Below, piece by piece: positions 6,223 through 8,373 of a stretch of DNA of 25,496 bases. Source of the stretch: a virus; the IMG/VR virus record IMGVR_UViG_3300029349_000009, positions 1,151-26,646 of that record; one strand, written 5' to 3'. Each line of letters starts with the position of its first letter. Position 1 is the first letter of the stretch. Made by a program: the position numbers and the translations under genes. The notes beneath the pieces are model-generated. The model saw only the letters and a program-made list of their open reading frames with translations, was not told where the DNA came from and ran no database searches.

Positions 6223-6291
6223 TCAAATAAGACAAACAAACAGCAAAACAGATATAAATGATAGACCTGCTAGGATGTCGTCGGCGCTCAT
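6223..6291 (-). CDS. Putative 22-aa membrane peptide
   Basis: ATG at 6291 overlaps the TGA of the clamp-like gene (ATGA) and is preceded by AAGGTG at a 5-base spacing. It encodes MSADDILAGLSFISVLLF plus VCLI, then TGA at 6223-6225. The product is a short polar N-terminus followed by a single hydrophobic helix of about 15 residues. The only evidence is the SD, the ATGA coupling and the coherent hydrophobicity. It could be a chance ORF in the 77-base gap. Confidence 0.4.
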   Translation of the reverse strand: MSADDILAGLSFISVLLFVCLI

Positions 6292-6878
6292 GCTTGCACC
6301 TTAGCCAATCCGCGCTCGAATTCTGATGATTCTGGTACTTTGTGGCGCACTGGCATAATTACAGCATAGAACGATTTTTCATTAGAAACATATACGCCGC
6401 TACTTCCTTGCTGTGCAAGATAGCCGTGCTGCTGTGCTGTGCCTAGTATTTTCTGTGCTTTTGCTAGATCAACGAGATATTCAGGCGTATAGTGTGCCAC
6501 TTCAACCTGCTGTAACTTAGTTGGTATAACGCGCCGATAGTCTGGGTATTTCCCAACTACCTCTGGCACTGTAATAAATCCCGCGCCTGTTCTAATTTTA
6601 ATCTGACGAGTTGCGCCTGGAATAATCTCAATCTCGAACGTCTGCGGTTTCAGTTTGCATAGCTGCTTTACTGTATCACTAGGCATAATGACAGAATCTA
6701 CTGCTTGTGATTTGCGCTTACAAACGATGTGCATTCTGTGGCCGTCAGTACCGACAAGCCTATATCCCCCATCGTTGTCAAGCTCGAATAATACGCCGTT
6801 TAAGTAGTAGCGAATGTCTTTATTAGCCATTGCTAACGCTACTGCTTGTAAGTCTTTTGTTGCGATAGTGTAAATCAT
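6288..6878 (-). CDS. Shortened DnaN-like sliding clamp (beta-clamp) protein
   Basis: 196 residues. Residues 20-48 (KDIRYYLNGVLFE...LVGTDGHR) and 101-120 (FITVPEVVGKYPDYRRVIPT) match, as I remember it, the second domain of bacterial DNA polymerase III beta (E. coli: DVRYYLNGMLFE, ATDGHRLA, FPDYRRVLP). Residues 171-178 (YAVIMPVR) match the extreme C-terminus (YVVMPMR). The protein is about half the length of bacterial DnaN (366 residues): domain 1 and most of domain 3 are missing. A ring would therefore need a higher oligomer, or the protein may instead mimic or bind the host clamp. Role: polymerase processivity or host-replisome interference (inference). AAGGAG lies 7 bases before the ATG. It sits upstream of the primase-helicase in the early operon. 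Confidence 0.8.
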   Translation of the reverse strand: MIYTIATKDLQAVALAMANKDIRYYLNGVLFELDNDGGYRLVGTDGHRMHIVCKRKSQAVDSVIMPSDTVKQLCKLKPQTFEIEIIPGATRQIKIRTGAGFITVPEVVGKYPDYRRVIPTKLQQVEVAHYTPEYLVDLAKAQKILGTAQQHGYLAQQGSSGVYVSNEKSFYAVIMPVRHKVPESSEFERGLAKVQA

Positions 6879-6896: not shown

Positions 6897-7205
6897 TTAT
6901 TGATTGACTTCAGTCTGTGAAATGTGGAATACATAAGTAGCCTTTGGGCGCATTGCTTCCTCGCCTGCCTTAGTAGTGTATTTTACCCAAGTTAGAACCT
7001 GTACGCCTTTTTCACCTTTTTTTACGTGCCTGTTAAGCGCTTTCCATGCGTGAAAAGTAAAGACATTCTCTCTAGGTTTAATGTCTTGAACCGGGATTCC
7101 CATTTGTGATAGACCTTCGATAATTGCGAAGTAGTTGGTTGTGCTCTGGTTTGTGGTGGCATTGTGTAATGCCTGGTGCGCTATCTCTTGCTGTTTCATT
7201 TTCAT
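6897..7205 (-). CDS. ArdC N-terminal-domain-like (ssDNA-binding) protein
   Basis: 102 residues. Residues 50-71 (TFHAWKALNRHVKKGEKGVQ, then VL) and the C-terminal YVFHISQTEV (91-100) match the ArdC N-terminal domain signature (aromatic-x-A...L...VKKGEKG, then VF..SQT). In ArdC antirestriction proteins this domain binds single-stranded DNA and is followed by a zinc-metalloprotease-like domain, which is absent here. A role in protecting or handling ssDNA during entry or replication is plausible. Two ATGs, at 7205 and 7199, share one SD (AAGGA); the second has the more usual spacing. It sits between the 68-aa gene and the clamp-like gene, with a GAAA-loop hairpin just upstream. Confidence 0.65.
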   Translation of the reverse strand: MKMKQQEIAHQALHNATTNQSTTNYFAIIEGLSQMGIPVQDIKPRENVFTFHAWKALNRHVKKGEKGVQVLTWVKYTTKAGEEAMRPKATYVFHISQTEVNQ

Positions 7206-7498: not shown

Positions 7499-7526
7499 AT
7501 CTTATCATGCTGATTCTACATGTCAA
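7499..7526 (-). promoter_or_regulatory. Leftward sigma70-like promoter of the early operon
   Basis: On the minus strand TTGACA (plus 7521-7526) is followed after 16 bases by TAAGAT (plus 7499-7504). The -35 is a perfect consensus and the -10 matches 4 of 6. Transcription would begin near 7492, giving a leader of about 28 bases with SD AGAGGTC before ATG 7464. It drives all the minus-strand genes using host RNA polymerase. Confidence 0.6.
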
Positions 7527-7569: not shown

Positions 7570-7587
7570 TGTTGTATAAAAACAACA
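7570..7587. promoter_or_regulatory. TGTTGT-N6-ACAACA dyad between divergent promoters
   Basis: TGTTGT (7570-7575), ATAAAA, ACAACA (7582-7587) is a perfect 6-bp inverted repeat with an AT spacer, and a further ACAACA follows at 7596-7601. It lies between the leftward promoter (7499-7526) and the rightward promoter (7635-7663), where a shared operator would be expected. It could equally be a small hairpin. No binding protein is identified in the window. Confidence 0.35.
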
Positions 7588-7634
7588 TATAAGACACAAC
7601 ATTATTGCATTATCTTATTAGACATGCTAGGCAT

Positions 7635-7663
7635 TTGACAAGCATAAAAAAAGTCTGTATAGT
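7635..7663 (+). promoter_or_regulatory. Strong rightward sigma70 promoter
   Basis: TTGACA (7635-7640), a 17-base spacer, and TATAGT (7658-7663): 11 of 12 consensus positions at optimal spacing, the best promoter seen in the window. Transcription should start near 7669-7671, exactly where the first inverted-repeat arm of the candidate non-coding RNA begins. No ORF of more than 30 codons with an SD follows for about 700 bases. Confidence 0.75.
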
Positions 7664-7668
7664 GTGAA

Positions 7669-8003
7669 TTACAAGCTGTATGAGGGTTAAGTGAAGATGC
7701 GTGCATCCTAAGACCAAGCTGGCTTGTAAGCGCTTAGAGGACGGCGCTATCTGGACTTGTTAGGGTATCAGAGAAAACGGCTTACTGCTCAGAAGACACA
7801 ATCAACATTAATAGCCGACAGAAATAACTAACTGCACATTGTACGTTATCTAATACGCTTGAGGGCATCAATAAACTCAAGGAACAAGGTAACACGCTGG
7901 TAAGAATGAAGTAATGAATCATTCTTGTGGGCAAGCTAAAAGACCGCTAATTACTGTCTTCTAGCATGTCCTCGCTTTGCCTAATGAAACACATTAGGTC
8001 TTT
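7669..8003 (+). ncRNA. Candidate structured non-coding RNA, about 330 nt
   Basis: This gene-free stretch lies between the strong promoter at 7635-7663 and a terminator-like hairpin. It contains a series of perfect inverted repeats: TTACAAGC 7669-7676 with GCTTGTAA 7722-7729, enclosing GATGC/GCATC at 7696-7707; AGCGC 7729-7733 with 7744-7748; CGGCT 7778-7782 with 7813-7817; ATAAC 7824-7828 with 7845-7849; CTTGAG 7858-7863 with 7876-7881; AAGAATGA 7902-7909 with TCATTCTT 7919-7926; GCTA..AGAC 7935-7944 with GTCT..TAGC 7956-7965; CCTAATG 7980-7986 with CATTAGG 7992-7998. Every frame is short. I cannot match it to tRNA, tmRNA, 6S, RNase P or a group I intron core. A regulatory, packaging (phi29 pRNA-like in concept only) or replication-priming RNA are possible roles. 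Confidence 0.5.
7980..8003 (+). terminator. Terminator-like hairpin ending the candidate RNA
   Basis: CCTAATG-AAACA-CATTAGG (7980-7998) is a perfect 7-bp stem followed by TCTTT and then an AT-rich tract. The U-run is interrupted by one C, so termination may be partial. It falls about 330 bases after the predicted transcription start and before the AT-rich segment. Confidence 0.5.
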
Positions 8004-8141: not shown

Positions 8142-8156
8142 TTTAAGTACCATAAA

Positions 8157-8255
8157 TGTATCACAATGTAACCAAATGCACCATAAATGTAACCAAATGT
8201 AACACAAAAGGTCTATCATAGCGCACACACAGCCACAAGTGTAACATTTTGTAAC
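8157..8255 (+). repeat. Three helically phased pairs of TGTAAC direct repeats
   Basis: TGTATC at 8157 and TGTAAC at 8167, 8188, 8198, 8240 and 8250 (start positions) form three pairs. Members of each pair are exactly 10 bases apart, and the pairs are 31 and 52 bases apart, close to 3 and 5 turns of B-DNA. All six therefore face the same side of the helix. Flanks are also partly repeated (ACCATAAATGTA at 8149-8160, CACCATAAATGTA at 8179-8191). The array suggests cooperative binding of a dimeric activator or a replication initiator. It ends about 54 bases before the predicted late transcription start. Confidence 0.65.
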
Positions 8256-8296
8256 TTGAGGTGGTCACATAGGGGGCTGGGGGTGCTGAGGACTTT

Positions 8297-8302
8297 TATG
8301 AT
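8297..8302 (+). promoter_or_regulatory. Candidate weak late promoter -10 element (TATGAT)
   Basis: TATGAT (5 of 6 matches to TATAAT) lies 71 bases before the tail-spike gene with only G-rich sequence at the -35 position (GGGGG at 8272-8276 and 8279-8283). A promoter without a -35 just downstream of phased direct repeats fits activator-dependent late transcription: the nearest TGTAAC would centre near -57. This is inference from layout only. Confidence 0.3.
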
Positions 8303-8373
8303 GACACTCAAGAAAATCCCACAAAAATTATCAAGTTTCAGAGAAATGCCACAAATGACAGGAAACCATCTAA

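Follow-up and report, generated by a model that had tools for sequence, protein, structure and literature searches.

A previously uncatalogued structured RNA close to the probable genome terminus in a small Zobellviridae-related podovirus group

The window analyzed here (the whole stretch of DNA, 25,496 nt) corresponds to positions 1151 to 26646 of the 26,646-base IMG/VR record IMGVR_UViG_3300029349_000009. As seen from its gene content, it is organized in two divergent arms, a leftward one carrying genes for a primase/helicase and a beta-clamp-like protein, and a rightward one with tail spike, terminase, portal, and capsid genes. The beta-clamp-like protein of the early arm (positions 6288 to 6878) is short and corresponds to the central domain of DNA polymerase III beta; it is adjoined by an ArdC N-terminal-domain fragment (6897 to 7205). 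The large terminase matched an unclassified Manatee Spring podovirus at 56%, Methylophilales phage MEP402 and Celeribacter phage P12053L at 54%, and Vibrio phage ICP2 at 52%; at the DNA level, no named phage matched the window. The terminase relatives, the divergent arms, and a G-tract terminus element described below were all found as in Zobellviridae, and by its terminase relatives and genome layout, the phage is a distant relative of that family.

Between the two arms lies a transcription unit that recurs at the same genome place in three other IMG/VR phages (L002, L003, and L039) and in a fragment of a fifth (L041). The first two were found by protein search, and L039 and the fragment were found by a search with the tail gene. 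Four full RNA sequences were therefore compared, three of which are close to each other. Each of the four complete copies of the RNA is flanked by the two divergent arms, so the preliminary description, which had been made from the window alone, was right to place it between early and late operons. What that description overlooked is that the same junction is the place of the terminal repeat in related phages. The RNA gene of L039 (L039:565-894) is a mosaic: compared with the window, its core is 95% identical in the 5' part and 78% in the 3' part, but the long-range helices bridging the two are preserved.

A promoter search placed a sigma-70-like promoter for the leftward early operon (TTGACA-16-TAAGAT) on the minus strand at positions 7499 to 7526, and a TTGACA early-arm promoter scoring 10 to 11 of 12 occupies the same place in L002, L003, and L039. 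On the plus strand, the RNA promoter (TTGACA-17-TATAGT, 7635 to 7663) agrees with the sigma-70 consensus at 11 of 12 positions. This near-consensus promoter, already proposed from the window, is conserved in the relatives: the four complete copies score 11 to 12 of 12, with a 17-nt spacer in all, and the -10 hexamer reads TATAGT in L002, TATAAT in L003 (12/12), and TACAAT in L039. Upstream of it, positions 7572 to 7617 hold conserved palindromes, TGTTGTATAAAAACAACA and an inverted repeat around TAAGACA, which are possible operator or hairpin sites. Transcription is predicted to start at about 7669 to 7671, and the structured RNA, supported by covariation, spans 7669 to 8003 on the plus strand, its 3' end being doubtful. 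The claim that the unit holds no gene stands, since open stretches of the sense strand in 7669 to 8003 reach 33 codons at most and none of the frames stays open across the region in all four copies.

All helices described here lie on the plus strand. The RNA begins with P1, in which TTACAAGC (7669 to 7676) pairs with GCTTGTAA (7722 to 7729); the L002 counterpart, TACATTC/GAATGTA, differs by two compensatory pairs. This 8-bp helix had been described as the outer helix of the unit. It does lie at the predicted first base and is also present in L002, but it bounds a local 61-nt 5' domain (7669 to 7729) and does not close the structure. The core is closed instead by P3, a long-range pseudoknot (7737 to 7742 with 7968 to 7973; GAGGAC/GTCCTC in the window, GAGGCC/GGCCTC in L002), whose 5' strand lies in the loop of the covarying hairpin P2 (7730 to 7734 with 7743 to 7747). 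The hairpin P4 (7750 to 7754 with 7768 to 7772) has three pairs changed on both sides, and its loop (7759 to 7763) forms a second pseudoknot, P12, with a linker at 7828 to 7832 (GTTAG/CTAAC; TCTAG/CTAGA in L002). The third pseudoknot, P6, is again long range: its 5' strand lies in the loop of the covarying hairpin P5 (7778 to 7782 with 7813 to 7817), and this loop is paired to a stretch about 160 bases downstream (7791 to 7798 with 7955 to 7962), also with covariation and with a possible extension (7786 to 7789 with 7963 to 7966).

The remaining helices of the core are more conventional. P13 is a small covarying hairpin (7833 to 7836 with 7840 to 7843). P7, P8, and P9 are ordinary stems: P7 (7845 to 7850 with 7888 to 7893) encloses the P8 hairpin (7858 to 7863 with 7876 to 7881), the two having seven pairs changed on both sides, and P9 (7902 to 7909 with 7919 to 7926) has four such pairs and a conserved loop with TAATGA. 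The conserved unpaired stretches are CTAATA, AT-AA-AAA, GAACAAG, and TAATGA. A further pairing, P10 (7935 to 7938 with 7962 to 7965), competes with the P6 extension; the TAGC/TAGG at 7962 to 7965 has these two possible partners, and all three sites changed together in L002, so the alternative pairing could be a switch. The topology of a group I intron was considered and rejected: the order of P5 and P6 resembles the P3/P7 pseudoknot of such introns, but nothing corresponds to their P4-P6 domain.

The evidence for this fold comes from an alignment of the four copies over 270 columns, in which a structure of eleven helices, pseudoknots included, with 69 core pairs was tested. Covariation in relatives, which the preliminary description had proposed as a check, was found: 26 of the 69 core pairs differed at both positions while remaining paired, against a mean of 7.9 in shuffled alignments, and none of 500 shuffles reached 26. 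Overall, 97.4% of cells were paired in the core structure, and sliding the helix partners by 1 to 3 columns lowered this value to 32 to 42%, a control that leans in favor of the structure because the latter was partly derived from the same four sequences. A scan of all possible helices under column permutation, which is independent of any chosen structure, gave nine helices of at least 5 bp with compensation, compared to 0.69 on average and at most 3 in 100 permutations; it also turned up P12, P13, and the P6 extension, previously undrawn by eye. The sample of four sequences is small, and most of the compensations were contributed by L002, with further, independent ones from L039 in the stems P7, P8, and P9. 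The compensations of P1, which is not covered by the 270 columns, were counted by hand. As judged from the four aligned copies, some 12 helices, three of them long-range pseudoknots, are supported. The chain of successive inverted repeats noticed initially therefore reflects a real structure, although not one of simple successive hairpins.

Excess folding stability over shuffled sequence was not observed. Folding of the single sequence gave z = -0.69, with 21 of 100 shuffles folding at least as well, an outcome that the preliminary description had itself named as grounds for refutation, and single-sequence folding was rejected as evidence for the RNA. We attribute this result to the pseudoknots, which are invisible to plain folding. 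Since sequence covariation by itself cannot separate RNA from DNA, the pairing might in principle belong to folded single-stranded DNA, such as a single-strand initiation site. This we consider very improbable, given that the promoter is aligned with the first helix and that G-U pairs are retained in the sense orientation: in the promoter's reading direction, 12 G-U cells were counted versus one A-C cell, and on the opposite strand those G-U pairs would be mismatches.

A search of the window with the Rfam 15 covariance models gave no match at the gathering threshold and none at E values up to 10. In L002 and L039, the matches were at chance level and far below gathering; the best of them by E value, a tmRNA fragment in L039 (8.6 bits against a gathering score of 47; E = 0.41), was dismissed as noise. 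ARAGORN recognized no tRNA-like domain, either tmRNA or tRNA. DNA-pattern scans of the viral collection returned only the known members of the RNA family, as did two covariance models, the first run over loci totaling about 1.7 Mb and the second (R2) over a smaller part of them. In the bacterial and archaeal genome collection, the RNA pattern scan returned nothing and a primase scan returned no relatives. A 17.5-bit match in MW202697 was rejected, lying inside a DNA polymerase gene. At the same place, related Zobellviridae have ORF-free regions whose conserved content is different and does not match the RNA models, so the RNA appears to be group specific in the searched collections. Thus, the initial impression that the sequence resembles no RNA family agrees with the lack of a credible Rfam match, and this, together with the covariation, bears out its description as a candidate new structured phage RNA. 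We are almost certain that the RNA is genuine and that, as a structured RNA not catalogued before, it belongs to a small group of uncultured, Zobellviridae-related podoviruses. It is the fold and the family that are new; structured phage RNAs as such are already known.

The 3' boundary fared differently. P11 (7980 to 7998, plus strand), the CCTAATG/CATTAGG hairpin that had been read as a terminator, is weakly supported: 81.5% of its cells are paired, it has no compensatory change, and it is broken in part of the copies. It is indeed a hairpin followed by a U-rich tail in the window, but that tail is present in the window only among the four copies, and no intrinsic terminator (hairpin and U-tract) was found in the three relatives scanned. 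Hence, of the promoter-to-terminator unit, the promoter is conserved and the terminator is not, the label is unwarranted, and the transcript may run on past 8003.

About 300 bp downstream of the RNA, a G-tract element together with CCCACAAAAATTAT (8263 to 8335, plus strand) matches the boundary of the cobavirus terminal repeat. Such a terminus-like element adjoins the RNA in four phages, and the three G-tracts between early and late arms are also found in ICP2, P12053L, ICBM1, ICBM2, SIO1, CVT22, PP21, VP41s3, and the Manatee Spring phage; the first G-tract is shorter in the window. Copies of the element were located at L138:13690-13765, L133:9378-9450, L137:62-130, L210:299-400, L212:5517-5610, and L209:2171-2075, and the DNA element seen across Zobellviridae between the arms consists of the G-tracts, about 40 bases, and then a CACAAAAATTAT-like motif. 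A conserved G+C-rich region has been described at the 5' end of cobavirus terminal repeats (PMC6775973), and in ICBM1 and ICBM2, the last G-tract is found some 20 bases inward of the boundary annotated for the direct terminal repeat. By analogy with these other genera, the genome of the window phage would end near 8303. Because the downstream element marks the end of the direct terminal repeat in cobaviruses, the RNA gene is probably located at the genome end and transcribed towards that end. The terminal repeat is 172 bp in ICBM1 and 711 bp as annotated for Klebsiella phage Klyazma, and that of the window phage may be short as in the former or long as in the latter; if long, the RNA gene would lie inside the repeat. 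Between the RNA and the terminus element, TGTAAC/TGTACC repeats spaced by about 10 to 11 bp occupy positions 8149 to 8255 (plus strand). Copies in reverse orientation lie upstream of the RNA promoter, and at L022:10131-10281, the repeats are expanded to 13.9 tandem copies of CTAATGTACCT.

This location, with the gene next to a terminus element, would fit a role in packaging or concatemer processing at the terminal repeat, as a positional analogue of phi29 pRNA. The latter is likewise a stand-alone structured RNA near a genome end, encoded at positions 147 to 320 in an operon read to the left end (PMC11476376). However, pRNA has been described as unique to phi29-like phages (PMC11476376); it is 174 nt long and belongs to protein-primed phages with a reduced terminase, whereas the present phage has ordinary terminase genes, encoding the large subunit and a probable small one. 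No match to a phi29-type pRNA family was found in the window with Rfam, and the related cobaviruses and ICP2 have the terminus element with no match to the RNA. A packaging function is therefore unlikely. We give a similarly low standing to a replication primer or origin RNA, in which a structured transcript would run into the G-tracts and repeats following the logic of ColE1 RNA II. The G-tracts lie downstream on the transcribed sense strand, along with the 10- to 11-bp repeats, and the minimum of the cumulative GC skew falls at about 8000; yet gene direction confounds the skew, the terminal-repeat boundary already accounts for the G-tracts, and the phage has its own primase/helicase.

The reading that we tentatively place first is that of a structured leader that acts on the host RNA polymerase in late-gene transcription. 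Host sigma-70 RNA polymerase would start at about 7670, and the RNA would fold while emerging; no RNA polymerase gene was seen in the examined part of these phages' genomes. On the infecting linear genome, the transcript would soon run off the end near 8303. Once replication has joined genome ends, the same transcript would continue past the joint into the late genes; the folded leader would act in cis on the polymerase so that the long late operon is read through. A leader acting on polymerase is favored because in none of the four copies is the RNA separated from the tail gene by another late-sense promoter scoring at least 10/12, and its position upstream of the late operon and the lack of a terminator in three relatives are in keeping with it. 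The closest precedent would be the put RNA of phage HK022, also a folded, sigma-70-transcribed leader placed just after the promoter at the head of an operon, which acts on polymerase as nascent RNA (PMC9378689). Nevertheless, put RNA is about 70 nt with two stem-loops (PMC9378689) and comes from another phage family, a size and shape that the present fold of about 330 nt with three pseudoknots far exceeds, and a late promoter of a non-sigma-70 type could lie between 8003 and 8374.

Nearly as likely as this leader is an early, stable RNA acting in trans, which would bind or titrate a host protein or form a particle of its own in the manner of GOLLD and ROOL. The elaborate pseudoknotted fold and the strong promoter of early type, which is arranged back to back with that of the early arm, point in this direction, and large phage RNAs can be abundant: the most abundant ICP1 transcript is a large noncoding RNA likened to GOLLD/ROOL-type RNAs (PMC7567579), and ROOL can match 16S rRNA in abundance (PMC12286853). 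GOLLD, ROOL, and OLE are, like the present RNA, phage or bacterial RNAs with a large, elaborate secondary structure found by covariation. In contrast, they range from about 580 to more than 800 nt, GOLLD and ROOL often lie near tRNA genes whereas our RNA lies by a probable genome end, and none of the three has a sequence-structure match in the window according to Rfam. The lack of a conserved terminator also argues against a stable trans-acting RNA, as does the fact that in the searched collections, the RNA was never found away from its present genome position.

Returning to the leader and its link with the genome end, it is conceivable, though we would doubt it sooner than believe it, that the RNA times late transcription or joins in packaging only once the ends are joined, which would make it either an antiterminator resembling put but with a new architecture, or an RNA of the packaging type from outside the phi29 group. 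The family combines three covariation-supported pseudoknots in only about 330 nt near a probable genome end, and it gives a defined locus at which to study how late genes are turned on, or genome ends processed, in such phages. Its case also illustrates that a screen by folding energy may overlook a genuine pseudoknotted RNA that a comparison of four sequences reveals at once.

Finally, the neighboring groups carry their own ORF-free regions at this junction. The cobaviruses ICBM1, ICBM2, and SIO1 share the genome position and the G-tract boundary element with the window phage, but their region holds another conserved noncoding block, without a match to the RNA. In ICBM1, this block lies at L196:285-444, adjoining the cobavirus terminal repeat; it is common to ICBM2, SIO1, and CRP-4. 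A family-wide RNA was considered and rejected; the cobavirus block aligns poorly across genera. In ICP2, a 1.75-kb ORF-free region lies between the arms (L138:12406-14160), with 83 to 100% identity in ICP2-type phages. Its early-sense strand has a few covarying helices, and its late-sense strand has 16, compared to 2 to 15 in five permutations, which represents at most a marginal covariation excess.
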